Below, in pieces: positions 8,702 to 42,177 of a DNA stretch of 64,000 bases. The first letter of the stretch is position 1. Every line of letters starts with the position of its first letter. Origin of the DNA: a virus; IMG/VR virus record IMGVR_UViG_3300022937_003185, positions 1-64,000 of that record, one strand, 5' to 3'. The notes under the pieces were generated by a model. The model searched no databases. It was not told where the DNA came from and saw only the letters and a program-made list of their open reading frames with translations. Both the position numbers and the translations under genes were made by a program.

Positions 8702-9490
8702 ATGACTGCGAAACAAAAAATTGTCTTGTTTGACATGGACGGTACTCTGACACCAGCTAGAGAGCCAATAGAAGATGATATGATAGCTGCTTTAATACGT
8801 CTCACCAAGCACTCTAGAGTTGGTATCGTGACCGGATCAGACATGGATTACGTAATGCAGCAGATGGGAAGAGCGTTTGATATCGGTGGGGTTCCAGTCA
8901 ATAGGCTAGATGTTCTACCTTGCAACGGTACAAAATTCTATTCGTCAAACAGCTCCAACAATTACGTACTTGTCTCTGAAGCTGATATGCTTAAGGAAAT
9001 TGGTCAGGCTGTATACAATAAGATTATTTCTAGATGTATGAGCTGGCAGACTGCTATCACTACCGACTATCCGAACCTTCCTTTTACCGGTACATTCTTT
9101 CAATACAGGGGCTCGTTATTAAACTGGTGTCCAATAGGGAGATTAGCCGGCCAAGAACAAAGAAGCGCGTGGACCTCTTTGGATCAGCAAGAAGGAATAA
9201 GAGAGAAGTATTGTTCACAATTGTCTTCCCTACTTAAAGAAGATGGTATCGACGTGACTGTTGCTCTTGGGGGTACAACTAGTTTTGATATATACCCGAC
9301 TGGATGGGATAAAACATACGCTCTAAAGCACTACCCTGATCATGATATATGGTTCGCCGGCGACCGCTGTGATCCAGGGGGGAACGATTGGCACATCTAT
9401 GAGAAGCTAATTTCTGACAATCGGTCCTTTAAAGTTGAAAGCACCTCGGAAACCATCGAACTTATCGATTCTCTAATCCTGACTTTCTGA
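8702..9490 (+). CDS. pmm: Phosphomannomutase, eukaryotic (HAD) type
   Basis: This 262-aa protein interconverts mannose-6-phosphate and mannose-1-phosphate. The catalytic D11-M-D13-G-T of HAD phosphomutases is present, followed by G-I-V-T-G-S-D (41-47), N-W-C-P-I-G-R (141-147), S-F-D-I-Y-P-x-G-W-D-K (194-204) and G-D-R-C-D-P-G-G-N-D (220-229). All are signature segments of the eukaryotic PMM family rather than of bacterial ManB/CpsG. The length is normal for the family. The cupin at 11641 could give its substrate, and GDP-mannose dehydratase at 41197 would use the product after guanylylation. GAAGGAAG lies 11 bases before the ATG. Confidence 0.9.
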   Translation: MTAKQKIVLFDMDGTLTPAREPIEDDMIAALIRLTKHSRVGIVTGSDMDYVMQQMGRAFDIGGVPVNRLDVLPCNGTKFYSSNSSNNYVLVSEADMLKEIGQAVYNKIISRCMSWQTAITTDYPNLPFTGTFFQYRGSLLNWCPIGRLAGQEQRSAWTSLDQQEGIREKYCSQLSSLLKEDGIDVTVALGGTTSFDIYPTGWDKTYALKHYPDHDIWFAGDRCDPGGNDWHIYEKLISDNRSFKVESTSETIELIDSLILTF

Positions 9491-9534
9491 ACATGCTTTG
9501 CCCTGCTATTACAATATAGCATCAGGAGTAGTGC

Positions 9535-11160
9535 ATGAATCAAGAAATTATTTCTAAATTTCCGTATAAGTCAATTAGAGATCAGCAGCTTCAAGCTATA
9601 GAATTTTCAATCGACGCTATAAAGTCACAAGGCAAGAAGTTTGTGGTTATCGAGGCTGGTACCGGTGTCGGGAAATCAGCTATTGGATTAACAGTGGCAA
9701 GACTTCTTAGCGATGGAAGTTCAGAAAAGCATGCGCCCGGTGCATACTTTTTAACCACTCAAAAAATTCTACAAGAACAGTATGTCAAAGACTTTGGTGG
9801 ATTTAGCGGACCCATGAAGTCGATTAAATCTTCGTCTAACTACTGTTGCAACTTCAATAAGGGAACTTCTTGTGGAGAAAGCTTAAGAGCTCTAAAGACA
9901 GCAGACAAATCGAGCAGGTTCTTTAAGTCATGCGCGTTTAATTGTGTATATAAGAAAGCCAAAGAATCTTTTGTCAATGGAACAGAGGGAGTTACTAACT
10001 TCCCTTACTTTCTAGCAGAGACACAATACTCTGGCAAAATTACGCCAAGAGATGTTCTGGTAATTGATGAGGCCCACAATATCGATTCAGAGTTGAGCAA
10101 ATTTATTGAGATCACCATCTCTGATAAGTTTTGCATGTCATTCTTGAATATGTCTATCCCGAATGGGATGACGCAACTACAGTACATTAAATGGATCAGT
10201 GATGTATATTTGAAGACAACAGTTTCAAAACTTACTCATCTTGAGAAGATGATGGAAAAATACATTGGGTTGAAGGAGAAAATTCGATCAGGCGAATTTG
10301 CATCAATTGCAAAAAAGTTTGAGATGCTTGATAAGCATGTGTGTAAGCTAAGAAGGTTCTTAGATTTGTATGACGGAAATAATTGGGTTATGAATGACAT
10401 ACCAAAAGACAATATGTCAAGTAGAAAACTACAATTTAAACCAATTGATGTAGCACCGTATGCAAATGAAATGCTATATGATCATGGTCGTTACGTCGTA
10501 TTAATGTCTGCGACAATTCTTGATAGAGATGCGTTTGCTTTGTCGGTCGGTATCCCTTCTCAGGATATGGCTTTTATATCTCTCGAGTCGCCGTTTCCTG
10601 TTGAGAATATGCCGATCATCTACGCCGGTATCGGAAAGATGACGTACTCTGCTATTGACGGTACTTTGCCTAAGATGGTACAAGCTATTAAGCAGATCAT
10701 TGATGAACACAAGAATGAAAAAGGCATCATACATTGTCATTCGTATAAGGTCGCTAGCTATATTAAGAAGAATATCAGAAGCACGAGAATCTTGATCCAT
10801 GGATCTGATAACCGGGACGAAGTCTTGGAAAAGCACAAGAAGTCTAAAAAACCGACTGTTCTAATTTCTCCTTCAATGACAGAGGGTGTTGATCTAAAGG
10901 GAGAGTTAAGTAGATTTCAAGTTATCTGTAAAGTACCGTACCCTTACCTCGGTGACAAACTAATTAAAAAGAAGATGAATAAGTGGCAGTGGTGGTATCC
11001 GCTTCAGACTGCTAAGACCATCGTACAGTCTGTTGGAAGGTCAGTCAGGTCTAACGAGGATAGAGCAGTGACGTATATTCTGGATTCAGATTTCGAGAGG
11101 TTCTACAAATCTAATTCATCTCTTTTTCCAGCTAAGTTTAGGGAGTGTTTAAAATTATGA
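9535..11160 (+). CDS. XPD/DinG-type superfamily 2 DNA helicase, 541 aa
   Basis: The Walker A is E-A-G-T-G-V-G-K-S (residues 40-48), the Walker B is V-I-D-E-A-H (176-181), and motif VI is Q-S-V-G-R-S-V-R-S near the C-terminus. Five cysteines between motifs I and II (104, 105, 113, 133, 137) sit where XPD/DinG helicases hold a 4Fe-4S cluster. These enzymes unwind DNA 5' to 3' in repair and replication. The protein is shorter than cellular DinG (about 700 aa) but contains both helicase lobes. AGGAG precedes the ATG. The stop overlaps the next start. Confidence 0.85.
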   Translation: MNQEIISKFPYKSIRDQQLQAIEFSIDAIKSQGKKFVVIEAGTGVGKSAIGLTVARLLSDGSSEKHAPGAYFLTTQKILQEQYVKDFGGFSGPMKSIKSSSNYCCNFNKGTSCGESLRALKTADKSSRFFKSCAFNCVYKKAKESFVNGTEGVTNFPYFLAETQYSGKITPRDVLVIDEAHNIDSELSKFIEITISDKFCMSFLNMSIPNGMTQLQYIKWISDVYLKTTVSKLTHLEKMMEKYIGLKEKIRSGEFASIAKKFEMLDKHVCKLRRFLDLYDGNNWVMNDIPKDNMSSRKLQFKPIDVAPYANEMLYDHGRYVVLMSATILDRDAFALSVGIPSQDMAFISLESPFPVENMPIIYAGIGKMTYSAIDGTLPKMVQAIKQIIDEHKNEKGIIHCHSYKVASYIKKNIRSTRILIHGSDNRDEVLEKHKKSKKPTVLISPSMTEGVDLKGELSRFQVICKVPYPYLGDKLIKKKMNKWQWWYPLQTAKTIVQSVGRSVRSNEDRAVTYILDSDFERFYKSNSSLFPAKFRECLKL

Positions 11161-11660
11161 AAGTCTACAACAACATAGAAGATTTCTTGAAAGAGTCATG
11201 GGTACAAACAGAAAACCCTATATACATGACATCTGGTGGGTTTGATCCTTTACATATCGGACATCTTAGATGTATTTTAGAGACCGCTGACATGGCAGAT
11301 CTTGATGGCGGACATGTCGTCGTCATTGTCAACGGTGACGGTTTCCTAAACAGAAAAAAAGGAAAGCCGTTCATGAATGAGGCAGAACGTGCTGAAATTA
11401 TTGCTGGTATTCGTGGTGTTGATGCTGCTATCATTTGGGATGATGGTGGCCAAACAGTAATTGGTGCCATTGAAAAACTTAAACCGACATTTTTTACCAA
11501 GGGTGGAGATAGAGCGGCACCTGAGGACATTCCTGAATGGGACATTTGTCAACAAGTCGGATGTGAAGTGTTGTTTAACATTGGTGGAGAGAAAATCCAG
11601 AGCTCTTCTTGGTTAATTGAAAACGCAGCTAACGAGGAAAATGATGAGAAAAAAGATTGA
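11157..11660 (+). CDS. HIGH-motif nucleotidyltransferase (RfaE2/TagD-like), 167 aa
   Basis: ATG 11157 overlaps the helicase stop. G-G-F-D-P-L-H-I-G-H is the nucleotide-binding motif of the cytidylyltransferase superfamily. F-T-K-G-G-D-R and the late K-I-Q-S-S-S-W-L-I resemble the sugar-1-phosphate/glycerol-phosphate transferases such as the C-terminal half of HldE. The enzyme should join a nucleotide to a phosphorylated sugar or polyol. Flanked by a cupin isomerase and near phosphomannomutase, it may belong to the nucleotide-sugar route. It is not the GT-A-fold mannose-1-phosphate guanylyltransferase, so its substrate is open. Confidence 0.8.
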   Translation: MKVYNNIEDFLKESWVQTENPIYMTSGGFDPLHIGHLRCILETADMADLDGGHVVVIVNGDGFLNRKKGKPFMNEAERAEIIAGIRGVDAAIIWDDGGQTVIGAIEKLKPTFFTKGGDRAAPEDIPEWDICQQVGCEVLFNIGGEKIQSSSWLIENAANEENDEKKD

Positions 11661-11985
11661 TAAGCCCTGGGGATTTGAGTTAATTTGGGCCCAGACAGAA
11701 GATTATGTAGCCAAGCTTATTGTTATCGAAGCCGGCCAACGGCTTTCGAAGCAATACCACGAAAAAAAGACAGAGACAGTGTATGTCATGGAAGGTGTGT
11801 TGTTGAATTATGACAAAGATGATAATGAAACAAGACTGATGCAAGGTGAAACGTTACATGTAGAACCTGGACAAGTTCACAGATTCTGTGCACCAGAAGA
11901 TCGATATGTGAAAGTGATCGAAGTAAGTACGAACCACTTAGATGATGTTGTCCGAATTAGCGATGATTACGGCAGGGGAGAATGA
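11641..11985 (+). CDS. Mannose-6-phosphate-isomerase-type cupin, 114 aa
   Basis: The start is ATG 11641 or 11644 after GAGGAA; the frame is open further back to a TTG at 11617 that lacks support. K-P-W-G-F-E near the start is the hallmark of the type II phosphomannose isomerase cupin domain. It is followed by cupin motif 1 (Q-Y-H-E-K-K-T-E-T-V-Y-V-M-E-G) and motif 2 (H-V-E-P-G-Q-V-H-R-F), which supply metal ligands. It would turn fructose-6-phosphate into mannose-6-phosphate. Free-standing cupins of this size are known. A related sugar isomerase/epimerase role cannot be excluded. It overlaps the nucleotidyltransferase by 20 bases. Confidence 0.75.
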   Translation: MMRKKIDKPWGFELIWAQTEDYVAKLIVIEAGQRLSKQYHEKKTETVYVMEGVLLNYDKDDNETRLMQGETLHVEPGQVHRFCAPEDRYVKVIEVSTNHLDDVVRISDDYGRGE

Positions 11986-11988
11986 ATA

Positions 11989-12396
11989 ATGGCTGGATCG
12001 GGATTCGTGCTATTTCGAGAAGACACTATTAGCAGCCCCTCGCCGCTGATGTTAGCATTAATTCGGAAAGATGGCATATTCGATATACCGAAAGGTCACA
12101 AGGAAAAGGGGGAGGATGATATTACTACAGCCACCAGAGAGTGCTTCGAGGAGTGTTCAGTGATGGTTAGGAGTGGTGATATTCTCTACAGCCCTTTCAC
12201 CAACGGTGAGCTAACTTCATTTTGTGCTAGCACAAATCAAACTCCGACCATCACAAAAAACCCATCATCAGGTTTAGTTGAGCATGCAGGCTGGCGGTGG
12301 GTTACAAAGGATGAGTTTGTACAAAACTGCTTAAGCTACCTGAGACCTGGCGTTGAATATTTTTATTCAGAGCACTCTAGGAAATATAATCCATAG
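11989..12396 (+). CDS. Nudix hydrolase, 135 aa
   Basis: Residues 36-58 form a Nudix box: G36-x5-E42-x7-R50-E51-x2-E54-E55-x-S-V. The only departure from the consensus is Ser for Gly at position 57. The family hydrolyses nucleoside diphosphates linked to another group. Preceding D-G-I-F-D-I-P-K is the usual lead-in strand. The substrate is unknown: nucleotide sugars would fit the neighbours, dinucleoside polyphosphates or capped RNA would fit other phage Nudix enzymes. It follows the cupin by three bases. Confidence 0.85.
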   Translation: MAGSGFVLFREDTISSPSPLMLALIRKDGIFDIPKGHKEKGEDDITTATRECFEECSVMVRSGDILYSPFTNGELTSFCASTNQTPTITKNPSSGLVEHAGWRWVTKDEFVQNCLSYLRPGVEYFYSEHSRKYNP

Positions 12397-12439
12397 TTAG
12401 TAATATGTAGAATGGTTTAGGATCCAAGGATACAAAAGA

Positions 12440-14910: not shown

Positions 14911-14922
14911 CCCGGGGAAAAC

Positions 14923-16851: not shown

Positions 16852-16923
16852 TACTAGTCTTGAAAATTAACTGCTGTCTCGATTACAATTATCATTATCC
16901 ATTAGACATAAGGGAGTAATGAG

Positions 16924-17202: not shown

Positions 17203-17219
17203 ACATGTAGGGGTACGTT

Positions 17220-18936: not shown

Positions 18937-18973
18937 AAAAGATAAATGCATCGATTTTTTTAGGAGAATATTC

Positions 18974-29213: not shown

Positions 29214-31163
29214 ATGTCAGTATTCAAAAGTCCATTTGAGCAACAGCAGCCTTCTGTCAATTTGATCGATGACAGTACAGATGTGGTTGTAGTTGCAGAT
29301 TTATTTGTAGAAGATTATGTCGGTGGTGCTGAGCTAACAACCGAAGCTCTAATTCAAGCCGCAAGTGATGTCAAGGTACAGAAGGTTTATGCTAGAGATG
29401 TAAGCATGGCAATGCTAAAGTCCGGGCATGGGAAGCATTGGGTTTTTTGTAACTCGACTTCTATGAATCCATCTCTTATTCCGACCATCATCGCTAACAT
29501 GGAATATTCAATAATCGAATATGACTACAAGTTCTGTAAATTCAGAAGCATAGAGAAGCATGAGTTAGAGACTGGTACTCAATGCGACTGTCATGAAGAT
29601 CTTCACGGTAAGATGATATCAGCTTTCTTCCATGGCGCAAAGAGCCTATGGTGGATGAGTGAAGATCAAGAAGCAAGATACTTAGCACGTTTTCCTTTCC
29701 TAAGAGAAAATGATTCAGTTGTGCTTAGCAGCGTTTTCGATGATAGCTTCTTTGCATATGTCAACTCCGTGAAGTATGAAAATGAGAATCAAGACCGTCA
29801 GGGGTGGATTGTTCTCGGCTCAAATTCTTGGATCAAGGGGTTTGAAGATGCCGAGCAGCACTGTAAAGATAACGACTTGGAATACGAAGTCGTGTGGGGA
29901 GTTCCTCATGAAGAACTGCTTCAAAAGCTTTCTGCTGCTGAGGGTTTTGTGTATCTGCCTAAGGGAGGAGACACATGTCCAAGAATGGTTATCGAAGCCA
30001 AGGCTTTAGGATGCGAACTGGTCTTAAATGAGAACGTTCAGCACGCTAATGAGGAGTGGTTCACTGGATCTGATATCGACATGCTGTCATATCTCTATGC
30101 AGCCCGCGAAAGATTTTGGAACGCAATCAAGTCTATCATGAATTATACTCCTACACTTTCTGGCTATACCACTGTTAGGAACGCAAATCGTATGAAGTAC
30201 CCTTGGCAGGCGACTGTAAGGTCCATGCTTGGCTTCTGTGATGAGGTAGTTGTTGTCGATGGTGGTTCCGATGACGATACATGGGAAGAACTACAGACCA
30301 TGGCTCAGGGTCAGGAAGACGGACGTCTTAAAGTATACCAGCATTCTGTTCCGAATGATCACCCCTCATTTGCGTATGAGACAGACGGTAAGCTAAAAGC
30401 TACAGCTAGAAGCTATTGTACAGGTGATTTCTGCTGGCAGATGGATGCCGATGAGATAGTCCACGAAAATGACTATCAAAAAGCTAGAAATGTCATGAAG
30501 GCTTTCCCACCACAGTTTGACATCATGTCGTTACCAGTTATCGAGTACTGGGGCGGTGACGAAAAAGTTCGTATGGATATCAATCCATGGAAGTGGCGGA
30601 TAAGCAGAAACAAACCATATGTTACGCAAGGTATCCCGAGTGAACTTCGAAGATGGGATGAAGAAGGTAACATATATGCTGCTTTAGGGACAGACACATG
30701 TGATTACATACACTCTGAGACAGGTGAAAGAATACCCCACGTCGGCTTCTACACTGAGGATGCGCATAGGGTTAGGCTAGCTGCTTTGATGGGTAATGAT
30801 GAAGCGATGTCCGCATATCAAAACTGGTTCCAGCAGGTTGTAGATCAGATTCCATCAGTTCACCACTATTCATGGTATGATATTTCTAAGAAGATTAAGC
30901 AGTACAAGCTTCATTGGGCATCATTCTGGAAAAGCCAGTATCGTCATGATGCAGAGGATACCACAGAGAACAATGTCATGTTTGATAAGCCGTGGAGCGA
31001 AGTAACTGATGAAGACATCGAAGCTTTAAGCAAAAGGTTGGCTTCTGAGTTAGGGGGGTGGATATTCCACACTAAAGTTGACTTCTCTGCGAATGTTCCT
31101 CATGTAACTCTTAATACAACTCATCCTGTAGAGTTCTTAAATTTACGAGAGAAAAATGAATAG
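29214..31163 (+). CDS. Two-domain glycosyltransferase (GT-B-like plus GT2), 649 aa
   Basis: The N-terminal half (residues 1-290) looks like a GT4-type domain: V-V-V-V-A-D-L-F-V near the start, Y-V-G-G-A-E, then G-W-I-V-L-G-S-N-S-W-I-K-G and L-S-A-A-E-G-F-V-Y-L-P-K-G-G-D-T-C-P-R-M-V-I-E-A-K, the donor-binding E of GT-B enzymes. From about residue 310 a GT2 domain follows with D-E-V-V-V-V-D-G-G-S-D-D-D-T and W-Q-M-D-A-D-E. The fusion suggests two successive sugar additions to one glycan. It is the first gene of the glycan island and overlaps the next gene by eight bases. Confidence 0.82.
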   Translation: MSVFKSPFEQQQPSVNLIDDSTDVVVVADLFVEDYVGGAELTTEALIQAASDVKVQKVYARDVSMAMLKSGHGKHWVFCNSTSMNPSLIPTIIANMEYSIIEYDYKFCKFRSIEKHELETGTQCDCHEDLHGKMISAFFHGAKSLWWMSEDQEARYLARFPFLRENDSVVLSSVFDDSFFAYVNSVKYENENQDRQGWIVLGSNSWIKGFEDAEQHCKDNDLEYEVVWGVPHEELLQKLSAAEGFVYLPKGGDTCPRMVIEAKALGCELVLNENVQHANEEWFTGSDIDMLSYLYAARERFWNAIKSIMNYTPTLSGYTTVRNANRMKYPWQATVRSMLGFCDEVVVVDGGSDDDTWEELQTMAQGQEDGRLKVYQHSVPNDHPSFAYETDGKLKATARSYCTGDFCWQMDADEIVHENDYQKARNVMKAFPPQFDIMSLPVIEYWGGDEKVRMDINPWKWRISRNKPYVTQGIPSELRRWDEEGNIYAALGTDTCDYIHSETGERIPHVGFYTEDAHRVRLAALMGNDEAMSAYQNWFQQVVDQIPSVHHYSWYDISKKIKQYKLHWASFWKSQYRHDAEDTTENNVMFDKPWSEVTDEDIEALSKRLASELGGWIFHTKVDFSANVPHVTLNTTHPVEFLNLREKNE

Positions 31164-31938
31164 AGTTTCCGTATTGATACCCTTATACAACTGCGAATCG
31201 ACAGTTCGTAGAGCATTAGTATCAGTAAAAAATCAGACCTACAAAGACTTTGAAGTCATCGCCGTCGACAATAACTGTACAGATAGCACTATCGAAATAG
31301 TCGAAGAATTTATTGACGATATGGACATAAAGATAGTGAGCTGTAAAGAGCCGGGTATTGTTCCTGCCCTCAATGCAGGTCTTAAACATTGCCATCTTGA
31401 GTTTGTGGCGCGCCAGGACGGAGATGATTACTGGTATCCTGAAAAGCTAGAAAAGCAAGTTGCTTTTATGGACGAAAATCCTGAAGTGTCAGTCTTGGGA
31501 ACGCAGATACAGTTACTTGACGAAGAAGGTAACTTACAAGAAATGGGTACGATGGGAAGAAAAGTTGATTACCCAACTGATGACAATACAATTAAGGCGT
31601 TTTTTCTTTATGGTCAAAATTCAATATGTCACCCATCTGTGCTGATAAGAAACAAAATGTTTGGTATAGTCGGAGGCTATGAGCAGCTTTTTCCAAAAGC
31701 TGAAGACTTACATCTCTGGCTTAAGCTTTTACCACATACAGATTTTGCTAACTTAGAAGATGTTCTTGTTGATTATACTCAAAGAAAAGACCCTGACTAT
31801 GACGCTAGAATACCGATTTTTATGAGCGATACATACTACACGATGTATAAGACAGCAGGTATTGTTCATGGAGAAAGAGAGAAAAAGATTTATGATTGGC
31901 AACTCGATCCTACTGCACATGGTAACAAGAGGGTGTGA
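31156..31938 (+). CDS. GT2 family glycosyltransferase, 260 aa
   Basis: The N-terminus V-S-V-L-I-P-L-Y-N-C-E-S-T-V-R-R-A-L and V-I-A-V-D-N-N-C-T-D-S-T bind the nucleotide-sugar. R-Q-D-G-D-D-Y-W is the D-x-D metal site. The enzyme is about the normal length for a single GT-A domain and has no membrane segment. The acceptor and donor are unknown. It is followed by another GT2 gene with overlapping ends. Confidence 0.88.
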   Translation: MNRVSVLIPLYNCESTVRRALVSVKNQTYKDFEVIAVDNNCTDSTIEIVEEFIDDMDIKIVSCKEPGIVPALNAGLKHCHLEFVARQDGDDYWYPEKLEKQVAFMDENPEVSVLGTQIQLLDEEGNLQEMGTMGRKVDYPTDDNTIKAFFLYGQNSICHPSVLIRNKMFGIVGGYEQLFPKAEDLHLWLKLLPHTDFANLEDVLVDYTQRKDPDYDARIPIFMSDTYYTMYKTAGIVHGEREKKIYDWQLDPTAHGNKRV

Positions 31939-31940
31939 CT

Positions 31941-32693
31941 ATGCAAAAAATGAAGATAGTGGTTCCCACCTACAATACAGAGAACTGGATAGAGCGTTGT
32001 CTTAAGTCTATTTCTACTCAGACTTTTGTGAATTGGGAGTGTGTCATAATAAACGATGCTAGCACTGACAAGACAGGAGAAGTTATCGATAGCCTTCCCT
32101 TTGTGAAAGATGACAAAAGGTTTAAAGTCGTTCACAACCAAGAGAATGTTAAAGCGCTTAAGAATATAGTCGACGGTTTTAATATACTGAAGTGCCATGA
32201 AGATCCGGATAACATCATGATGGTAATCGATGGAGACGATTTTCTGTATTCAGATTCTAGCCTGTCTATAATAGAAGCAGTGTATACGCAAAACCCTTCT
32301 TTCTTGTTGACTTACGGTGACTGGATTGGCCACCCCTATGGTGATCGTAGCAATTGCAGACCCTATGCAAGAGAAGTGGTTATTGGAAATGACTATAGAA
32401 ACGTCCCTTTTTGCGCTTCGCACTTAAGAACATTCAAGAGCCGATTGTGGTACTCGATTAAAGATGAAGATCTACGTGACAACAGTGGAAAGTACTTTTC
32501 GGCTGGCTGGGATGTTGCATTCATGGTACCAATGTTAGAAATGGCTCAAGAGCGTCATGCGTTCTTACCGTATGTTATGTATTGCTATAATAAGGAAAAC
32601 CCTTTGTCGGATTATAAGGTAAACTCCAAAGAGCAAAATGATGCAGTCACGCTAACGAAAAGTCGTAAAAAGTACGAAAGACTTTCTTGGTAA
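31941..32693 (+). CDS. GT2 family glycosyltransferase, 250 aa
   Basis: ATG 31941 is preferred over GTG 31935 because AAGAGGG at 31927-31933 is better spaced to it. K-I-V-V-P-T-Y-N-T-E-N-W-I and I-I-N-D-A-S-T-D-K-T-G are the donor-binding segments; V-I-D-G-D-D-F-L is the D-x-D site. It resembles the preceding gene in length and layout, so the two may be ancient duplicates with different specificity. Confidence 0.87.
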   Translation: MQKMKIVVPTYNTENWIERCLKSISTQTFVNWECVIINDASTDKTGEVIDSLPFVKDDKRFKVVHNQENVKALKNIVDGFNILKCHEDPDNIMMVIDGDDFLYSDSSLSIIEAVYTQNPSFLLTYGDWIGHPYGDRSNCRPYAREVVIGNDYRNVPFCASHLRTFKSRLWYSIKDEDLRDNSGKYFSAGWDVAFMVPMLEMAQERHAFLPYVMYCYNKENPLSDYKVNSKEQNDAVTLTKSRKKYERLSW

Positions 32694-32716
32694 AAAAAGA
32701 ATAACGGAAGAAGAAT

Positions 32717-34602: not shown

Positions 34603-34603
34603 G

Positions 34604-35269
34604 ATGTTTGTTTCTTTAGAAGATGTGATACCGTACCTGAAGAAAAAAGGGTTTACTATCAATGATCCATGGGACGTTGTTGATGCCTTCGAAAAAATGG
34701 TAGCAGAATACGCAGGAAGTAAATTTGCAGTATCAGTAGATAACTGCACAGATGCTATGTTTCTTTGTCTAAAGTATCTCGACGCAAAAGGTACCATTAC
34801 TGTTCCGTCTAAGACTTACGTTTCCGTCCCACAGACTATTATACATGCTGGGTGTAGGGTAAAGTTTGAAGATGTTGAGTGGTCTGGTGCATACCAACTT
34901 CACCCGTATCCAGTAATTGATGGTGCAACAAGGTTTACTAAAGGAATGTATGTTCCAGGGACATATCAGTGTTTGTCATTTCATATAAAGAAAATCCTGA
35001 ATATTGGTAAAGGTGGTATGATTCTAACAGATGATCCAGAAGCAGCAAGGTGGTTCAAGGTTGCGCGTTACGAAGGCCGTCACATAGACGTACCGTATGA
35101 CAAAGATGAGATAGAGATGCTAGGTTGGAATATGTACATGCCACCTGAGCAAGCTGCAAGAGGAATTCAAATCTTTAAAGACTTACCAGAAGAAAATAAA
35201 GACTGTGGTGGCTCATGGAAGTATCATGATGTCTCTAACTTGAGCGTATTCAAGGGGTTCGTAGACTAG
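34604..35269 (+). CDS. Short DegT/DnrJ-fold PLP protein with Lys retained, 221 aa
   Basis: The large PLP domain of sugar aminotransferases is present: V-D-N-C-T-D-A-M near residue 46, P-S-K-T-Y-V-S-V-P, and S-F-H-I-K-K-I-L-N-I-G-K-G-G-M-I-L, where the first Lys of K-K is in the PLP-binding place. Normal family members are about 370-400 aa; this one stops after the large domain and lacks the C-terminal small domain. The conserved Asp that binds the PLP ring nitrogen is only weakly visible (P-V-I-D-G-A). It may be a minimal aminotransferase, or a partner of the full-length enzyme at 39992. AGGAG precedes the ATG. Confidence 0.75.
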   Translation: MFVSLEDVIPYLKKKGFTINDPWDVVDAFEKMVAEYAGSKFAVSVDNCTDAMFLCLKYLDAKGTITVPSKTYVSVPQTIIHAGCRVKFEDVEWSGAYQLHPYPVIDGATRFTKGMYVPGTYQCLSFHIKKILNIGKGGMILTDDPEAARWFKVARYEGRHIDVPYDKDEIEMLGWNMYMPPEQAARGIQIFKDLPEENKDCGGSWKYHDVSNLSVFKGFVD

Positions 35270-35295
35270 AATGAGTCTAATGAAAGTGGTTTAAT

Positions 35296-35892
35296 ATGAA
35301 TGATAGCGAAAGAAAGTTCTATAACGAAGACTATTGGTTTAAGAACACTCATCTTCATGGAGAAGTTAACGGATACGGCTTAGAATATTATGTCTGTAAG
35401 ATCTACAGAGATGTCATATTCAAGATTAATGACATTCCCGATAACGGATACATAGTGGTTCTTGGAAGCAATAATTGCGTTTCTTTTAACTTGCTTTGTG
35501 AAAGATATGGTAAAGAAAGATGCATCGGGTATGACATAGCTAATCCGACCAACCACGAAAAAGTGATAGTCAAGAATGTCTTAGATTTCAATTCTAGTGA
35601 TGACATACCCATAGCTTTTGTTCATAACGATATTGGCTCTTTTCCGACCACGCCGATAGCAAAGTTCGCAGCGCAAGACTGGGCAGCCAGAAATGTCGTA
35701 GAAGGAGGTTATTTTTTAAGCAGAAATAATTTTAACGCAGCGAAATATCCACTTGAGCAGCACTTAGAGAGGCATGGCTTCATAAACACTCACTTTCTAG
35801 GTTTACAACCCTTCATGGACTTGAGCTCTTTGGACTCTGCTTGCGTAGAGGGTCATATGATATCAAAGAAGAATCGGCCGAAACTAAGATAG
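35296..35892 (+). CDS. Methyltransferase-like hypothetical protein, 198 aa
   Basis: A Rossmann-like segment Y-I-V-V-L-G-S-N-N-C-V-S-F starts near residue 52 and is followed by R-C-I-G-Y-D-I-A-N-P, which resembles motifs I and II of SAM-dependent methyltransferases (D or E after the second strand binding ribose). I-A-F-V-H-N-D-I-G could be motif IV. The glycine loop is poor (G-S-N only), so binding of SAM is uncertain. In this operon it may methylate a sugar. Confidence 0.45.
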   Translation: MNDSERKFYNEDYWFKNTHLHGEVNGYGLEYYVCKIYRDVIFKINDIPDNGYIVVLGSNNCVSFNLLCERYGKERCIGYDIANPTNHEKVIVKNVLDFNSSDDIPIAFVHNDIGSFPTTPIAKFAAQDWAARNVVEGGYFLSRNNFNAAKYPLEQHLERHGFINTHFLGLQPFMDLSSLDSACVEGHMISKKNRPKLR

Positions 35893-35902
35893 AGGATACA
35901 AC

Positions 35903-36775
35903 ATGGGTTCTAATAAAGATAATGATGTGCTTGAAGTCAACTTGTTTGACTATAATATTGCCCACGCTACTAGCTATGACGACTCTTTAGAGAAGGGAAG
36001 GATAGAGCCCGGTATCAAATACATTAGAGATTATGACCCTCAAAGAGTAAGCGTATTTACCGATAATATGCTGAGTCAAGTTGATAACAAACCGGGAATT
36101 ATTAACGTAGCTTGGATAATGGAACCCATAGACTTCGCTCCAACTTCTTATAAGTACCTTTCGCAAAATTACAAGAAGTTTGATTTAATCTTAACCCATA
36201 ACCTAGATGTTATTGATAAACACTTATCAGAAGTTGACTGTCGATACGTAACAGCAGATGGTATTTTTTTAGACACTCCTGCTCTTGATAAAGCAAACCA
36301 CAATAAAAGCCGACTTTGCTCACATATTTTCTCTAGCAAAAGGTCTCTTCCTGGGCATAGGTTAAGACACGACATCGCCACGATGTTACCTAATTCTTTT
36401 GATATGTTCGGATCAGGAACAGGAAAATGGCTAGAAAAAAAGTCGGATGCTCTAAGAGATTACTATTTTTCTGTTTCAATAGAAAACAGCAGGTCTAGAG
36501 GCTACTTTACAGAGAAGATTATGGATTGTTTTGCAACAAGGACGGTGCCTATCTATTGGGGAGATGCTCATGTGTGGGAGTATTTCAATAAAGATGGAGC
36601 AATCAGGTTTGATACCCTAGAGCAGCTAAAAGACATAATCAATGGTATCAATAAAGAGATGTATGATGAGATGCTACCGGCTATTGAGCAGAACTACGAG
36701 CTATGTATTAAGTCGTGTTATAGCGTAGACCGTCAAGTAAAGCAACACATACAAGAATTTATTAAGTCTAGATAA
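35903..36775 (+). CDS. GT10 family alpha-1,3-fucosyltransferase-like protein, 290 aa
   Basis: The GT10 donor-binding block is clear: S-I-E-N-S (192-196), G-Y-F-T-E-K-I-M-D (200-208) and T-V-P-I-Y-W-G (214-220), which bind GDP-fucose in bacterial and animal alpha-1,3/4-fucosyltransferases. The N-terminal acceptor domain is shorter than in H. pylori FucT and has no heptad tail, so it is probably soluble. The donor would come from genes at 38293-42177. It is preceded by a 10-base gap after the methyltransferase-like gene. Confidence 0.87.
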   Translation: MGSNKDNDVLEVNLFDYNIAHATSYDDSLEKGRIEPGIKYIRDYDPQRVSVFTDNMLSQVDNKPGIINVAWIMEPIDFAPTSYKYLSQNYKKFDLILTHNLDVIDKHLSEVDCRYVTADGIFLDTPALDKANHNKSRLCSHIFSSKRSLPGHRLRHDIATMLPNSFDMFGSGTGKWLEKKSDALRDYYFSVSIENSRSRGYFTEKIMDCFATRTVPIYWGDAHVWEYFNKDGAIRFDTLEQLKDIINGINKEMYDEMLPAIEQNYELCIKSCYSVDRQVKQHIQEFIKSR

Positions 36776-36790
36776 ACAAAGGAAAATAGC

Positions 36791-37504
36791 ATGTATGACA
36801 TAACGCAACAGTTAGAGGATAGAAACATATTCGATGATATGTCTTTTCCAAGATTGGTTTCCTACCCAAGAACAGGCTCACACTGGCTAAGGATGATGCT
36901 GGAGGTCCACCTGGGCATGCCTTCTTACGTTCAAAGTTTTTTTGATCCGAATCCCGTTAAATGCTGGGGATTTCATATCCATAATAGGTTGATAAAAGAA
37001 CCACACCATACAGAGGGTCCTGTTATAGGACTAAAGAATGTGTTATACCTTTACAGGGATCCAATAGACACGATATTCTCACAACTTAGGTACGAAAAAA
37101 ATCTACTACCTTCCTGGGACGGCAAGACTAATGAACGTTTAGACCAGGACGTTGAAAAGATATCACAAGAATACTACGCTCATCTTAAGCGTTGGTTATC
37201 CAATAACAGTGATGTCAAGAATTTTATGTCATTGACGTACGAGGATTTGAAAGACGATCCTGTTGGAAAGCTGATGGCAATATCTACTTTTTTGGGAATG
37301 GGCGGTACTGTTGATACGGCTAGCGAGGCAGTGAGAAGATGTGATAAGTCTTTGACAAAAAAACTTACACCACATGACAATAGCGCTTTGAACGACCAGT
37401 CTTTAAATCGTCCAGATCAATATGCTGACCAAAAACGGCTCTTTGCGTCCAGATATGGAAGCGCAATAACTGAGAAGTTCAAGGGTGTATATTATGTCAA
37501 GTAA
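36791..37504 (+). CDS. Sulfotransferase, 237 aa
   Basis: S-Y-P-R-T-G-S-H-W-L-R (residues 24-34) is the 5'-phosphosulfate loop that binds PAPS. L-Y-L-Y-R-D-P-I-D-T-I-F-S near residue 89 is the 3'-phosphate-binding segment with Arg and the later Ser. Length and layout fit cytosolic-type sulfotransferases (Sulfotransfer_1). The acceptor is presumably a glycan made in this island. No PAPS synthesis gene is seen, so PAPS would come from the host. The end overlaps the next sulfotransferase. Confidence 0.85.
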   Translation: MYDITQQLEDRNIFDDMSFPRLVSYPRTGSHWLRMMLEVHLGMPSYVQSFFDPNPVKCWGFHIHNRLIKEPHHTEGPVIGLKNVLYLYRDPIDTIFSQLRYEKNLLPSWDGKTNERLDQDVEKISQEYYAHLKRWLSNNSDVKNFMSLTYEDLKDDPVGKLMAISTFLGMGGTVDTASEAVRRCDKSLTKKLTPHDNSALNDQSLNRPDQYADQKRLFASRYGSAITEKFKGVYYVK

Positions 37505-38162
37505 ACTAGAGCATAATGAACACTGGAATTTAGAGCAAGGTATATCGGAAAGTAATAGCTTATTTTTTGTAGGTGTGCCGAAAACAGGTAGTCAGACTTT
37601 CGCTTCTATCCTCGGCGCAGGAGGACCTAACAAGATAAATTCCGGTAACTTTACGTTAGAAGACTTTTGCTTAATGCACGGAATAGAAAAAGTAAGAAGG
37701 TTTAAGAAGGTAGCCTCGATCAGAAATCCGTATGATAGAATATATTCGTGTTGGACATACGCCGCAAAACCGAGAGGCATTAGCTTCAAAGAATTCACCA
37801 ACCTCTTGAAATCACACTCTAATAGAATAAAGAATTTAGACGAGCTTTCGTCTATATCTTCTCTAGACTTGATAAGAGAGAACTTTCCTTTTGGGAACTG
37901 GACGATGCATGGGTTGGCTTCAATGCACAACTTTATTAAGCATCCTGAGATTGGCATAGATCTAATCGTTTCGATTGACGATATGGATCATTCTATAGAG
38001 GGAATAAAGGGCTTACTAAAAAAAGACGTCAGCCCTATACATGTTAATAAGAGTAGTAAACCAGTAGACTCTAGCTCTATGAAACGCGACCCTGAATTTA
38101 TTTCAATAGTGAACGAAATATATGAGAGAGATTTTGCAGAGTTTGGTTATGAAATGCTGTGA
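37494..38162 (+). CDS. Sulfotransferase family protein (type 2-like), 222 aa
   Basis: ATG 37494 is chosen over GTG 37485 because AAGGG at 37480-37484 is better spaced. F-F-V-G-V-P-K-T-G-S-Q-T-F binds the 5'-phosphosulfate and V-A-S-I-R-N-P-Y-D-R-I-Y-S-C-W is the 3'-phosphate site. This pair (G-V-P-K-T-G and R-N-P-Y-D-R) is typical of the Sulfotransfer_2 carbohydrate group, different from the neighbour. Two unlike sulfotransferases suggest two sulfated positions. It is the last gene before a 130-base gap with a late-type promoter box. Confidence 0.83.
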   Translation: MSSKLEHNEHWNLEQGISESNSLFFVGVPKTGSQTFASILGAGGPNKINSGNFTLEDFCLMHGIEKVRRFKKVASIRNPYDRIYSCWTYAAKPRGISFKEFTNLLKSHSNRIKNLDELSSISSLDLIRENFPFGNWTMHGLASMHNFIKHPEIGIDLIVSIDDMDHSIEGIKGLLKKDVSPIHVNKSSKPVDSSSMKRDPEFISIVNEIYERDFAEFGYEML

Positions 38163-38229
38163 GTAGCTATACAGACAGCTTTACAACTATCTAGAGTGTT
38201 GTATTTCACTATTCCTTCGTTTTTCTTAA

Positions 38230-38237
38230 TATAAATA
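38230..38237 (+). promoter_or_regulatory. T4-type late promoter box TATAAATA
   Basis: An exact match to the T4 late promoter octamer, 55 bases upstream of the GDP-fucose synthase start in a 130-base gap. A gp55-like sigma factor is encoded at 46480. Confidence 0.55.
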
Positions 38238-38292
38238 GAAGTAGTACGTAGCGTAATGTGTAAACATGTCGTTCCGCAAATAAGGTTTATCT

Positions 38293-39222
38293 ATGAAGAT
38301 ACTAGTTACAGGTGGGCATGGGATGGTTGGATCTGCATTTAACCGTGTAGACACCACTCACACAATCATCACTATAGGCCGCCAAGATGCGGATTTAGCA
38401 AATCGGTCCGAAGTATTATCAGTGATTGATAAAGTGGAGCCTGATGCCGTTATACATCTTGCTGCAAAGGTGGGTGGTGTCAAGGGTAACACTGATTTCG
38501 TCGCAGACTTTTATACCGAGAATACCTTGATGAATACCAATATCCTTGACTGTTGTCACGAGGCTGGTGTAACAAAAGTGCTATCGCTACTTTCTACGTG
38601 TATATATCCAGATGACGCAGTTTACCCATTAACTGAAGATCAAATTCATCTTGGTCCACCTCATGTAAGCAACTTTGGATATGCGTATGCAAAGAGGATG
38701 CTAGATGTACACTCTAGAGCACTTCGAAGACAATATGATAGAAACTACATCTGCGCCGTGCCAAACAATCTGTATGGCCCTTATGACAACTTTGATCTTG
38801 AGAATAGTCATGTGATTCCAGCCATCATAAGAAAGATATGGGAAGCGAAAATTAATAATAGCACACCAATTTTCTGGGGAGACGGTAGTCCCTTAAGAGA
38901 GTTTACTTTCTCTGACGATATAGCTAAGTGTTTGATTTTTTTACTTGAAAAGTATGAAGATGCCGACCCTGTGAACGTAGGAAACATAGGGGAGGTTAGT
39001 ATCAAACAAATCGTGGAAAAGACATGCGATATTTTAGATTACAAGGGTAGTATAGAGTGGGATCCAACAAAGCCTGCTGGACAGTTTAGAAAGCCAAGCG
39101 ACAACTCTAAATTCATAGGTTTAGGCTGGTCTAACGATATGTATACAGACTTCGATACAGGACTGAAGGTAACAATCGATTGGTTTAAGAAAAACTACCC
39201 AAATATAAGGGGAGTTAGATGA
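38293..39222 (+). CDS. fcl: GDP-L-fucose synthase family epimerase/reductase, 309 aa
   Basis: N-terminal T-G-G-H-G-M-V-G binds NADP(H). All five catalytic residues of E. coli GDP-fucose synthase are present with constant spacing: S101, C103, Y130, K134 and H173 (each six below the E. coli number). I-H-L-A-A-K-V-G-G-V and L-S-T-C-I-Y-P are family signatures. The enzyme makes GDP-L-fucose from GDP-4-keto-6-deoxymannose. The close relative ColC makes GDP-colitose and shares these residues, so given the ColD-like gene at 39992 either or both products are possible. The stop overlaps the GT11 gene. Confidence 0.95.
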   Translation: MKILVTGGHGMVGSAFNRVDTTHTIITIGRQDADLANRSEVLSVIDKVEPDAVIHLAAKVGGVKGNTDFVADFYTENTLMNTNILDCCHEAGVTKVLSLLSTCIYPDDAVYPLTEDQIHLGPPHVSNFGYAYAKRMLDVHSRALRRQYDRNYICAVPNNLYGPYDNFDLENSHVIPAIIRKIWEAKINNSTPIFWGDGSPLREFTFSDDIAKCLIFLLEKYEDADPVNVGNIGEVSIKQIVEKTCDILDYKGSIEWDPTKPAGQFRKPSDNSKFIGLGWSNDMYTDFDTGLKVTIDWFKKNYPNIRGVR

Positions 39223-39995
39223 TCACATGTAATCTAAAGGGAAGGCTGGGAAACCAGTTGTTTCAGATCGCAACAGCACACGCTCTCGCTCTAGATAATG
39301 GTGACAGATGCATATTCCCACTTGGCATTGAGGGTGCTACACCCAATATCTATGAAAGAACCTTTTACGCAAATACTGTATTAAGAAACATTGTGTATGG
39401 ATATGACTTTTCGTGGATAAAAAGTATCTATAGAGAACCTGGATTCCATTACAGCAAGATAGGCTATCAAGACGGACTACTATTAGACGGGTACTTTCAA
39501 AGTGAAAAGTATTTTGTACACCAGAGGGATAGAATACTGGAGCTTTTTTCGCCCTCTGAATATATCACTGAAAGAGTGGAAAGATATACTGAAGTTATTA
39601 ACTTTGGTGAGTGTGTAGCGGTTCACGTAAGAAGAGGTGATTATGTGAAGTTGTCTGATGTCCACACAAATCTTGCTGAAAACTCACCGTACTACACAGA
39701 TGCATTAAGTAAATTTTCTAATAAGAAAAAAGTGTTCTTTAGCGACGATATACAGTGGTGCAAGCAGAAGTTCGGAGACCAACACACATATGTTGCTAAT
39801 GAAAACGATGTAGTTGAGTTGTTTCTATTTTCGAAGATGTCGAGTAAGATAATCGCAAATTCATCGTTCAGCTGGTGGGGAGCATGGCTAGGAAGTTTTG
39901 ACGATGAAGTTATAGCTCCAAAGCAGTGGTTTGGTCAAAATAATTCTCACTTAAACACTGAAGATGTGATACCGCAAAGATGGAAAAGAATATGA
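39219..39995 (+). CDS. GT11 family alpha-1,2-fucosyltransferase, 258 aa
   Basis: G-R-L-G-N-Q-L-F-Q (8-16) at the N-terminus, H-V-R-R-G-D-Y-V (136-143) for GDP binding and S-S-F-S-W-W-G-A-W near residue 218 are the three GT11 signatures. The length is typical of bacterial FutC/WbsJ enzymes (about 290 aa). It would transfer fucose (or perhaps colitose) from the GDP donor made next door. It is embedded between the donor-synthesis genes, four-base overlaps on both sides. Confidence 0.94.
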   Translation: MITCNLKGRLGNQLFQIATAHALALDNGDRCIFPLGIEGATPNIYERTFYANTVLRNIVYGYDFSWIKSIYREPGFHYSKIGYQDGLLLDGYFQSEKYFVHQRDRILELFSPSEYITERVERYTEVINFGECVAVHVRRGDYVKLSDVHTNLAENSPYYTDALSKFSNKKKVFFSDDIQWCKQKFGDQHTYVANENDVVELFLFSKMSSKIIANSSFSWWGAWLGSFDDEVIAPKQWFGQNNSHLNTEDVIPQRWKRI

Positions 39996-41158
39996 GCATT
40001 AGATATCCTCTGGTGAAAGATACCATTGATAATTCCGACATCGATGAGCTAATCGAGTGGTTGAAGACGTATCCTAGACTAACAAAGGGACCTTTGACCA
40101 AAGAATTCGAATCAAGGTGGGCTTCTTGGCTTGGGTCAAAAAGAGCAATTTATGTAAATTCAGGAAGCTCAGCGAATCTTCTTATGTTGTATTCCTTGAT
40201 AGTCGATGGAAAAATAAACCACGGCGATTCGATTATCGTTCCGGCAATATCATGGGCTACAGACTTATCTCCCGTAATGCAGTTTGGATTGAGACCGATC
40301 CTTTGCGATTGTAACATGGAAGACCTGTCTGTGGATCTAGAACACCTTGAGCAATTAATTAAGGATAAAAAACCGAAAGCTCTTATGCTAGTCTCTGTAC
40401 TTGGACTTGTTCCAGATATGGATAAGCTCATGAAGCTCTGCGATGATAATAACGTGATTGTCTTAGAAGACACATGCGAATCATTAGGTTCTATGTTCAG
40501 CGGCCGGAAGCTTGGTACATTCGGAACGATGTCGAGTTTCTCTCTTTATTTTGGTCACCACATATCTACCATAGAGGGTGGTATGATATGCACAGATGAT
40601 GATAATTTAGCAGATATATTGTTAAGTATAAGGAACCACGGTTGGGATCGCGACTGGAGCGAAGACAGAAAAGAAAGATACAGGAAAGAGTACAACGTTA
40701 AAGAGTTTGACGCTCTTTACAAATTTTATTATCCTGGATTCAATGTAAGAGCCACAGATCTTCAAGCAAAGTTGGGCTTTCGACAACTAGAAAAATTAGA
40801 CGAAGTTTGCAAAATTAGAGAAAGAAATTTTCAACTGTACATGTCAAACTTAAGTGAATCAGGGATTTGGTTGCCTAAAAACAGTCCAGAGAATTTCACA
40901 TCTAATTTTTGCTTCCCCATCATCCATGAAAATAGAGATAAGATTGCAGGTTCTTTGATATCTGCGGGAGTTGAGTGTCGGCCACTTATCGCTGGTTCAA
41001 TGGGCACTCAACCCATGTACACTCGTAAGTATGGCGTTTTGCATCTCAAGAATGCAAGTGTGGTGGACAACAGCGGAATGTATGTTCCAAACAATCAATC
41101 TTTCAAAGAAGAAGACATAGACAGAATTTGTGAAATCATCATTGGTTCTGTAAACTAG
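39992..41158 (+). CDS. colD: ColD-like GDP-4-keto-6-deoxymannose 3-dehydratase (His in place of PLP Lys), 388 aa
   Basis: ATG 39992 overlaps the previous stop (ATGA); ATG 39980 is an alternative. The protein is a full-length DegT/DnrJ-fold enzyme, with N-S-G-S-S-A-N at residues 56-62 for phosphate and V-L-E-D-T-C-E-S for the PLP Asp. At the Lys position it has S184-L-Y-F-G-H189-H190-I-S-T-I-E-G-G, identical in spacing to S-F-Y-P-A-H-H-I-T-M-G-E-G-G of ColD and the RfbH/E1 dehydratases. In those, His replaces Lys and the enzyme removes the 3-OH instead of transaminating. With GDP-mannose dehydratase downstream, GDP-4-keto-6-deoxymannose is the likely substrate. The symbol is by analogy. Confidence 0.8.
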   Translation: MSIRYPLVKDTIDNSDIDELIEWLKTYPRLTKGPLTKEFESRWASWLGSKRAIYVNSGSSANLLMLYSLIVDGKINHGDSIIVPAISWATDLSPVMQFGLRPILCDCNMEDLSVDLEHLEQLIKDKKPKALMLVSVLGLVPDMDKLMKLCDDNNVIVLEDTCESLGSMFSGRKLGTFGTMSSFSLYFGHHISTIEGGMICTDDDNLADILLSIRNHGWDRDWSEDRKERYRKEYNVKEFDALYKFYYPGFNVRATDLQAKLGFRQLEKLDEVCKIRERNFQLYMSNLSESGIWLPKNSPENFTSNFCFPIIHENRDKIAGSLISAGVECRPLIAGSMGTQPMYTRKYGVLHLKNASVVDNSGMYVPNNQSFKEEDIDRICEIIIGSVN

Positions 41159-41196
41159 ACTTTGAAAAACTAAATTTATTATTTAGGGAGTACTTT

Positions 41197-42177
41197 ATGA
41201 AGACAGCGATGGTAACTGGTATAACAGGACAGGATGGCTCTTACTTAGCAGAACTGTTACTAAACAAAGGTTACAGAGTGGTTGGTCTCAAGAGAAGAAC
41301 AAGTATCCTGTCGACTGATAGAATAGACCACTTGTTCGATAACCCGATGTTATCACTGGAATATTATTCTCTTCACGACGCCACAACGTTATACAGGCTG
41401 ATTGAGAAATATAAACCACAAGAGTTTTACAACTTAGCTGCTCAATCGCACGTTAAGGTTTCATTTGATGTACCTGTCGAGACCGTTGATACTATCGTGA
41501 TGGGTACTTTAAAGATTCTAGAAGCAGTTAGACACGTCGATCCAACAATAAAGGTTTACCAAGCAAGTTCTTCAGAGATGTTTGGAGACAATCCGACTGT
41601 GCCGCAGTCAGAGACAACAGCTCTGCAACCAGCAAGCCCATACGCATGTGCAAAAGTATTTGCCCACAATCTCTGTAGGAACTATAGAGAGTCTTACGGA
41701 ATGCATATATCTAGCGGTATCTTGTTTAATCATGAAAGCCCTCGACGTGGCGAAACATTTGTCACGAGAAAAATTACGCTGGCTGCTGCGAGAATAAAGC
41801 TCGGGCTCCAAGACAAGCTTTATCTTGGAAATCTAGACGCAAAAAGAGACTGGGGTTTTGCTGGTGATTATGTGGAGGCAATGTGGAGAATGCTGCAGCA
41901 GGAATCGCCAGATGACTATGTAATTGCTACAGGCGAAACGTCGACAGTCAAGGAGTTTCTGCACAAAGTCTTTGAGATAGCAGGTCTTGATGTAGAAAAA
42001 TATGTAGAAATAGACTCTCGTCTGTTCAGACCTCATGAGGTTCCTCTTCTTTTGGGAGACGCTACAAAGGCAACAGAAAGGCTTGGGTGGAAAGCAACAG
42101 TTGATTTAGACGGACTAGCTAGGATGATGTATGAGTCAGACCTAAAGATGTTAAGCAAAGAACAAGGAAGACAATAA
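41197..42177 (+). CDS. gmd: GDP-mannose 4,6-dehydratase, 326 aa
   Basis: T-G-I-T-G-Q-D-G-S-Y-L-A-E binds NADP. R-R-T-S, N-L-A-A-Q-S-H-V, S-S-S-E-M-F-G and Y-A-C-A-K (the YxxxK dyad) follow in the order of the GMD family. N-H-E-S-P-R-R-G is its best-known signature. The length is slightly short of E. coli Gmd (373 aa) but covers both domains. The product, GDP-4-keto-6-deoxymannose, feeds the fucose synthase and the ColD-like enzyme. It sits at the downstream end of this subset after a 38-base gap. Confidence 0.96.
   Translation: MKTAMVTGITGQDGSYLAELLLNKGYRVVGLKRRTSILSTDRIDHLFDNPMLSLEYYSLHDATTLYRLIEKYKPQEFYNLAAQSHVKVSFDVPVETVDTIVMGTLKILEAVRHVDPTIKVYQASSSEMFGDNPTVPQSETTALQPASPYACAKVFAHNLCRNYRESYGMHISSGILFNHESPRRGETFVTRKITLAAARIKLGLQDKLYLGNLDAKRDWGFAGDYVEAMWRMLQQESPDDYVIATGETSTVKEFLHKVFEIAGLDVEKYVEIDSRLFRPHEVPLLLGDATKATERLGWKATVDLDGLARMMYESDLKMLSKEQGRQ

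Follow-up and report, generated by a model that had tools for sequence, protein, structure and literature searches.

How much of the path from central metabolism to an activated deoxysugar can a phage encode for itself, and which enzyme would activate the sugar when the usual one is missing? Both questions arise from a 64,000-nucleotide stretch of viral DNA (hereafter the window), the first 64 kb of the 94,239-bp IMG/VR virus record IMGVR_UViG_3300022937_003185. Tail-fibre and baseplate profile matches inside the window mark it as part of a tailed phage. The original prediction named seven sugar genes here, encoding a cupin-type phosphomannose isomerase (PMI), a eukaryotic-type phosphomannomutase (PMM), a GDP-mannose 4,6-dehydratase (GMD), a GDP-L-fucose synthase (FCL), a ColD-like dehydratase, and GT11 and GT10 fucosyltransferases. 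All seven lie where it placed them, and Pfam and NCBIfam profiles return the same families (Table 1). It also guessed in passing that a HIGH-type nucleotidyltransferase at 11157 fills the gap left by an absent mannose-1-phosphate guanylyltransferase. Gene fusions and mutual exclusion with the classical enzyme, ManC, have made that guess the best-supported part of the prediction, with the substrates themselves still predicted.

We consider it likely that the phage carries genes for every step of the predicted route between fructose-6-phosphate and GDP-L-fucose, this nucleotidyltransferase included, along with a ColD branch and transferases. With somewhat less assurance, we favour a broader proposal for the nucleotidyltransferase family, which occurs in large phages, Patescibacteria and other bacteria. 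It would be a second, independently evolved GDP-mannose pyrophosphorylase that belongs to the HIGH superfamily, replaces ManC, is fused with PMI, with PMM or with PMI and GMD, and frees phages from the host enzyme.

A predicted route from fructose-6-phosphate to GDP-L-fucose

In the predicted route, the cupin isomerase would convert fructose-6-phosphate to mannose-6-phosphate, and the eukaryotic-type PMM would convert this to mannose-1-phosphate. The HIGH-superfamily nucleotidyltransferase would then join mannose-1-phosphate to a nucleotide, most likely from GTP, to give GDP-mannose. From GDP-mannose, GMD would form a 4-keto-6-deoxy intermediate, which FCL would epimerise and reduce to GDP-L-fucose and which the ColD-like enzyme would divert towards GDP-colitose. 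GT11, GT10, the other glycosyltransferases and two sulfotransferases would modify a putative acceptor, either a virion protein or the host surface. We read these reactions from family placement, gene order, fusions and co-occurrence, and the most conjectural elements are the substrates of the nucleotidyltransferase and the acceptor.

Families were assigned using Pfam and NCBIfam profiles, PHROG, and matches to a library of solved structures. GMD passes the curated TIGR01472 cut-off, and the PMM (124 versus 22.4 bits, PF03332), cupin (44.5 versus 23.6 bits, PF01050), GT11 (95.3 versus 23.9 bits, PF01531) and GT10 (35 versus 23.9 bits, PF00852) proteins all exceed theirs. The closest solved structures to the PMM are of Phosphomannomutase 2, presumably the human enzyme, and the alignment retains the residues that we take to form the PMM2 active site. 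Structural matches to the cupin are mostly general cupins, with one named mannose-6-phosphate isomerase (7zvm, E = 0.003). FCL aligns with GDP-L-fucose synthase 4e5y, which we take to be the human protein, and its S-x-C, Y-x-x-x-K and H positions are all conserved. The claim that FCL retains five catalytic residues thus holds in this alignment, where we assume that the Ser, Cys, Tyr, Lys and His are the catalytic ones. The best solved-structure match of the ColD-like protein is 2gms (ColD/WbdK), presumably from E. coli. Its HHISTIEGG aligns with HHIATMEGG of ColD, placing a His where 2gms also has His and 3b8x has Asn; we take this His, in place of the Lys that binds pyridoxal phosphate (PLP), to be the catalytic hallmark of ColD.

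Judged from these genes, the donor may be GDP-fucose, GDP-colitose or both. A possible but less probable alternative is that the GMD intermediate flows mainly to GDP-colitose, with FCL acting as ColC and GT11 and GT10 as colitosyltransferases. In its favour, the gene that separates GT11 from GMD, and shares bases with GT11, is the ColD-like one with its His at the PLP site, and phage ACG-2014f has the same GMD-FCL-ColD set. Against it, the solved structures most similar to FCL are GDP-L-fucose synthases, in a comparison set without any ColC.

The cluster is flanked by tail-fibre (26332-29016) and baseplate (50278-52122) profile matches, an arrangement that fits a virion glycan without demonstrating one.

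A HIGH-superfamily nucleotidyltransferase proposed for the guanylyltransferase step

A 280,913-bp record represents the same phage, with identity to the window of 20,870/20,870 and 19,484/19,487 bases in the two stretches compared. The original claim that a classical mannose-1-phosphate guanylyltransferase is absent survives a search of this whole record: the classical GT-A domain PF00483 has no match in either the 94-kb or the 280,913-bp record. We also rejected the idea that some other phage gene supplies the missing step with a GT-A enzyme, as neither PF00483 nor PF12804 gave a match. Across the 12 records searched, which include that of the window phage, PF00483 matched two, one of them above cut-off.

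The protein encoded at 11157 belongs to PF01467, not PF00483. Its best NCBIfam model, TIGR02199 (HldE domain II), scores 70.2 bits, below the cut-off of 181.5. An AlphaFold2 (AF2) model, with a mean predicted local confidence (pLDDT) of 88.9, matches HldC 5xf2 (E = 5e-9), and H-x-G-H is invariant in our alignment A1; both the fold and the HIGH-type motif of the superfamily are present. When a tree of 155 domains is rooted with HldE of E. coli, a single clade (support 0.69) takes in 150 of them. The five that remain are HldE, three further HIGH proteins and an additional weak match from one phage-like contig, L143 (L numbers are our labels for retrieved loci). Against the family profile, from which L028 was excluded, E. 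coli HldE reaches 48 bits. By these sequence measures the family is distinct from HldE. GmhA-type isomerases (PF13580), a heptose partner and the only heptose gene searched for, have no match in the 280,913-bp record, and were above cut-off in 1 of 19 records.

We conclude that the nucleotidyltransferase is probably a non-classical GDP-mannose pyrophosphorylase, its substrate and nucleotide being predicted. Mannose is proposed as the sugar because of fusions to PMI, and GDP as the nucleotide because of a fusion to GMD and the exclusion of ManC. Among the papers listed by searches of the open PMC literature, none had a title pointing to a GDP-mannose pyrophosphorylase of a HIGH-type, HldE-like or non-orthologous kind. 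Because the top-scoring nucleotidyltransferase model is a heptose one, genes of this family are likely annotated as heptose-1-phosphate adenylyltransferases.

The nucleotidyltransferase pairs with predicted mannose enzymes in some viruses and bacteria

We retrieved the best 80 of 476 viral stretches and the best 80 of at least 497 bacterial stretches matching the nucleotidyltransferase; our open reading frame (ORF) filter retained its frame in 78/80 and 66/80 loci, respectively. PMM is encoded at 20 viral loci, counting that of the window phage; the nucleotidyltransferase lies within ~2 kb of it at 15, and it was not found in the flank of PMM at the other five (L009, L019, L020, L021 and L024). 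Within 5 kb of the nucleotidyltransferase in the best 80 viral loci, PMM occurs in 22 and a PMI-like cupin in 19. Viral locus L092 encodes nucleotidyltransferase and PMI as a single 277-aa protein. In the window itself, PMM, a helicase, the nucleotidyltransferase, the cupin and a NUDIX hydrolase form one tight same-strand gene run. The nucleotidyltransferase ORF can start at GTG 11145 or ATG 11157 and ends at 11660 (a 167-residue protein); the cupin ORF starts at TTG 11617 or ATG 11641 and ends at 11985, with a 20-bp overlap between the two genes.

The family is widespread in bacterial genome contigs, and about half of the best 80 bacterial stretches (39 by title) come from groups that we take to be Patescibacteria. 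Three bacterial loci (L181, L194 and L215) encode single-frame fusions of the nucleotidyltransferase to type II PMI, and two (L197 and L209) encode single-frame fusions to a PMM-like protein. At L189, one 665-aa frame combines nucleotidyltransferase, PMI and GMD, with an FCL gene next to it; here GMD scores 587 bits (cut-off 415) and the neighbouring FCL 505 (cut-off 500). In L092 and in each of these six bacterial fusions, Pfam recognises all the domains named here, whether two or three. Several of the fusion-bearing bacteria belong to Patescibacteria. GMD adjoins the nucleotidyltransferase gene in L148, L149, L151 and L194 and is one gene off in L181. Beyond GMD, L148, L149 and L151 also carry FCL and GT11-like genes, followed in L149 by a PMM-like gene. 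The nucleotidyltransferases of these three loci appear to carry an N-terminal shortened PMI cupin, scoring 15 to 18 bits on a purpose-built cupin profile; in L148, the one checked, neither Pfam nor NCBIfam recognised it.

Three of the 80 bacterial loci (L138, L143 and L144) were excluded from counts as phage-like, leaving 77. These three have PMM scores above 300 bits and neighbour genes of the window, and L143 and L144 fall among viral sequences on the tree. They are contigs in bacterial metagenome-assembled genomes titled Legionellales, Halobacteriovorax and Methylococcaceae, and are probably mis-binned phage DNA, as their PMM scores resemble those of the window phage's group. Within 8 kb of the nucleotidyltransferase at the remaining 77 loci, we found PMM-like genes at 11, PMI at 8 and strong GMD at 7. 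The closest bacterial nucleotidyltransferases apart from phage-like L138 (L139-L142) have no PMM, PMI or GMD in their flanks.

Strong nucleotidyltransferase matches and ManC exclude each other in one phylum

We then searched 116 genomes (of 120 requested) of one phylum, centred on the genome of L148, which was selected for carrying the family; we take its phylum, Yonathbacteria, to be a Patescibacteria group. A ManC-type domain was called from a TIGR01479 match beginning at position 5 or earlier with E < 1e-40, and GMD at a threshold of E 1e-90. GMD occurred in 40 genomes, the ManC-type domain in 63 and the nucleotidyltransferase at 100 bits or more in 16. None of these 16 carried the ManC-type domain, compared with 63 of the 100 others (Fisher p = 9e-7); without the centre genome the counts are 0/15 and 63/100 (p = 2e-6). 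The 40 GMD genomes divide into 26 with ManC, six with the nucleotidyltransferase, none with both and eight with neither (p = 8e-4), and excluding the centre genome (n = 39) gives 26, five, none and eight (p = 2e-3).

A second sample comprised 49 bacterial genomes chosen for carrying the family, hand-picked from the best 80 loci (L189 not included, L183 left out). TIGR01479 was over cut-off in none, and GMD was present in 20. At E ≤ 1e-5, TIGR01479 matched 17 of the 49; 16 of these matches covered only the C-terminal PMI part, and one included a weak N-terminal match. By comparison, all six control genomes bearing GMD matched TIGR01479.

Weighing the assignment

Several points weigh against this assignment. 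The 100-bit threshold and the ManC criterion were chosen after the lists had been seen, and the genomes are related, non-independent and of unstated completeness, so that the p-values overstate the association. When all 22 family matches (E ≤ 1e-12) are counted, four occur with ManC, compared with 59 of 94 other genomes (p = 2e-4). None of the 116 genomes, the 63 included, passes the curated TIGR01479 cut-off, and genomes with the nucleotidyltransferase carry GMD no more often (6/16) than those without it (34/100). The comparison covers the ManC-type domain and leaves out COG1208-type pyrophosphorylases; the eight GMD genomes with neither enzyme at the thresholds used point to a third source or to incomplete genomes. 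Only 17 of the 77 bacterial loci carry any of PMM, PMI and strong GMD at a distance of up to 8 kb. In the phage itself, FCL fails the curated NF047922 cut-off (269.7 versus 500 bits), though this is the best of 14 models, and a host ManC could make the phage nucleotidyltransferase unnecessary.

Other points concern the substrate. The fold of the AF2 model is nearest to HldC and glycerol-3-phosphate cytidylyltransferases, and we know of no HldC-like or glycerol-3-phosphate cytidylyltransferase that uses GTP. A GmhA-like gene lies within 8 kb of 3 of the 77 bacterial loci, L181 included, and in L197 the PMM-like half matches alpha-phosphoglucomutase 4bnd (3e-32) better than PMM2 (4e-17). Because of that partner, some family members may make another nucleoside diphosphate (NDP)-hexose, and the partner, the HldC-like fold and the GmhA-like gene of L181 together suggest that some may use other sugars.

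The same observations, the TIGR02199 best hit (below cut-off) and the ~24 kb separating the cupin from GT10, the nearest named gene of the second block, favour an alternative in which the phage draws on host GDP-mannose. PMM, nucleotidyltransferase and cupin would then form a separate pathway to an ADP-heptose-like or other NDP-hexose, and GMD, ColD, FCL and the transferases would by themselves make up a fucose or colitose system. We regard this as unlikely. Fusion in one frame to PMI, or to PMI together with GMD, speaks against it, as do the ManC exclusion and the cupin's scoring as a PMI, and its heptose version is weakened because the GmhA-type profile finds nothing in the phage record. It is just as doubtful that the window holds an ordinary surface-sugar cluster of the cyanophage kind with no new biochemistry: the cyanophage-type counterparts in S-SCSM1, ACG-2014f, S-SRM01 and S-SSM7 are close, but this reading does not explain why PMM and the nucleotidyltransferase keep occurring together, nor does it account for the fusions or the ManC exclusion.

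If the proposed pyrophosphorylase assignment is correct, bacteria and phages with GMD but without a recognisable ManC would gain a named gene for a central step of sugar activation. The window phage would also be an example of a virus equipped to make GDP-fucose from central metabolites by itself.

Gene inventory and other features of the phage records

Table 1 Sugar-related and neighbouring genes of the window
Feature	Coordinates	Strand	Profile or structure match
Eukaryotic-type phosphomannomutase (PMM), predicted mannose-6-phosphate to mannose-1-phosphate	8702..9490	+	PF03332 1e-35; Phosphomannomutase 2 structures 1.1e-35
DinG/Rad3-like helicase, between PMM and nucleotidyltransferase	9535..11160	+	phrog_2488 1.3e-114
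HIGH-superfamily nucleotidyltransferase, proposed non-classical mannose-1-phosphate guanylyltransferase	11157..11660	+	PF01467 1.7e-12
Small type II phosphomannose isomerase (cupin)	11641..11985	+	PF01050 2.1e-11; best NCBIfam, C-terminal PMI part of TIGR01479
NUDIX hydrolase, same gene run	11989..12396	+	PF00293 1.3e-6
GT2-type glycosyltransferase	29214..31163	+	PF00535 1.3e-8
GT2-type glycosyltransferase	31156..31938	+	PF00535 2.3e-31
GT2-type glycosyltransferase	31935..32693	+	PF00535 2.9e-20
Short DegT/DnrJ-type PLP protein (221 aa)	34604..35269	+	PF01041 9.8e-25
GT10 fucosyltransferase-like	35903..36775	+	PF00852 1.5e-8
Sulfotransferase	36791..37504	+	PF00685 3.8e-16
Sulfotransferase	37485..38162	+	PF03567 4.6e-7
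GDP-L-fucose synthase (FCL/GMER) or ColC-like variant	38293..39222	+	NF047922 3.4e-80, below cut-off; 4e5y 1.7e-79
GT11 fucosyl/colitosyltransferase-like	39219..39995	+	PF01531 5e-27
ColD-like GDP-4-keto-6-deoxymannose 3-dehydratase	39980..41158	+	PF01041 7e-74; ColD 2gms 6.5e-72
GDP-mannose 4,6-dehydratase (GMD)	41197..42177	+	TIGR01472 449.8 bits, cut-off 415
GT4-type glycosyltransferase, recurring in related phages	43727..44992	+	PF00534 3.7e-14
GT4-type glycosyltransferase, recurring in related phages	44995..46170	+	PF00534 1.5e-7

The two sulfotransferases are adjacent genes (36791-38162) from different Pfam families. The original prediction is silent on these, on the short DegT protein, on the GT2 and GT4 enzymes and on the second sugar locus described below. 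The DegT-type PLP protein is short (~200-220 aa against a 360-position profile) in the window and in two related phage records (L037 899-1492 and L038 849-1490), where it directly adjoins GMD. Three window ORFs gave no Pfam or PHROG matches; by eye, 42177-42740 and 35296-35892 resemble methyltransferases and 33916-34602 a 2-oxoglutarate-Fe(II) oxygenase. Downstream of PMM, the order PhoH, PD-(D/E)XK nuclease, GT4 is found in L010-L014, L016, L017, L024 and L025, recurring across much of the related phage group, with a second glycosyltransferase coming next in several.

A second sugar locus lies outside the window at L044 1129-6825 (~162.9-168.6 kb of the 280-kb record), in the order UDP-galactopyranose mutase, glycosyltransferase-like protein and epimerase; genes for a DHH-family protein and an MT-A70 methyltransferase come next. 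The same record carries seven tRNA genes at L046 8488-13600, and none was found in the window. Two very long ORFs, of ~2,200 and 2,417 codons, occupy window 58121-64000 running into L001 1-750, and L001 775-8028. Of the other ORFs in the remainder of the record, ten were tested and one of them had PHROG matches (DNA primase).

Comparison with known systems

The original prediction read the locus as a donor pathway, which our analysis supports, and called a near-complete pathway with matching transferases rare in phages, which overstated the case: S-SCSM1, ACG-2014f and S-SRM01 all have close counterparts. Among 50,697 phage records, the window GMD matches 250 (E 1e-5, related epimerases counted in), the ColD-like protein 87 (1e-5), GT10 20 (1e-3) and PMM 14 (1e-3). 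S-SCSM1 is reported to carry a monofunctional small type II mannose-6-phosphate isomerase, GMD, GDP-L-fucose synthase and three fucosyltransferase genes, with many glycosyltransferases in one stretch as in the window, and the main text of that report uses neither the term 'phosphomannomutase' nor 'guanylyltransferase' (PMC9602691). In the S-SCSM1 genome, the isomerase gene lies just upstream of epimerase genes that include GMD; unlike the window, the stretch fetched has no annotated ColD-like gene and no PMM or nucleotidyltransferase profile match.

ACG-2014f shares GMD, FCL, ColD-like and GT11-type genes and an annotated sulfotransferase near a tail fibre. S-SRM01 shares GMD, FCL, GT10-type and GT11-type genes but has an annotated NDP-sugar synthase instead of the nucleotidyltransferase, and S-SSM7 shares PMM-like, GT10-type and GT11-type genes. 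The window nucleotidyltransferase profile has no match in the stretches fetched from these four phages. We considered whether an annotated 'NAD synthetase' near the PMM-like gene of S-SSM7 is the same nucleotidyltransferase and rejected it, as the motif is absent and the profile does not match. A virus-encoded conversion of GDP-mannose to GDP-L-fucose has been reconstructed in vitro with GMD and GMER of chlorovirus PBCV-1, which differs in being a eukaryotic algal virus and whose route, in the portion of the report covered here, starts at GDP-mannose (PMC5408694).

The window nucleotidyltransferase shares its fold and HIGH-type motif with the heptose-1-phosphate adenylyltransferases HldC and the C-terminal domain of HldE. 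Unlike HldE, its family has PMM, PMI and GMD as fusion partners, and it scores far below the TIGR02199 cut-off. A functional parallel is the bifunctional mannose-1-phosphate guanylyltransferase/PMI ManC/AlgA (TIGR01479), which performs the reactions predicted for the window enzymes. Its layout recurs in L181, L194, L215 and viral L092, where a type II PMI cupin follows the nucleotidyltransferase as the C-terminal part of the protein; in these fusions, however, the putative guanylyltransferase half is of the HIGH-superfamily PF01467 type rather than the GT-A type.

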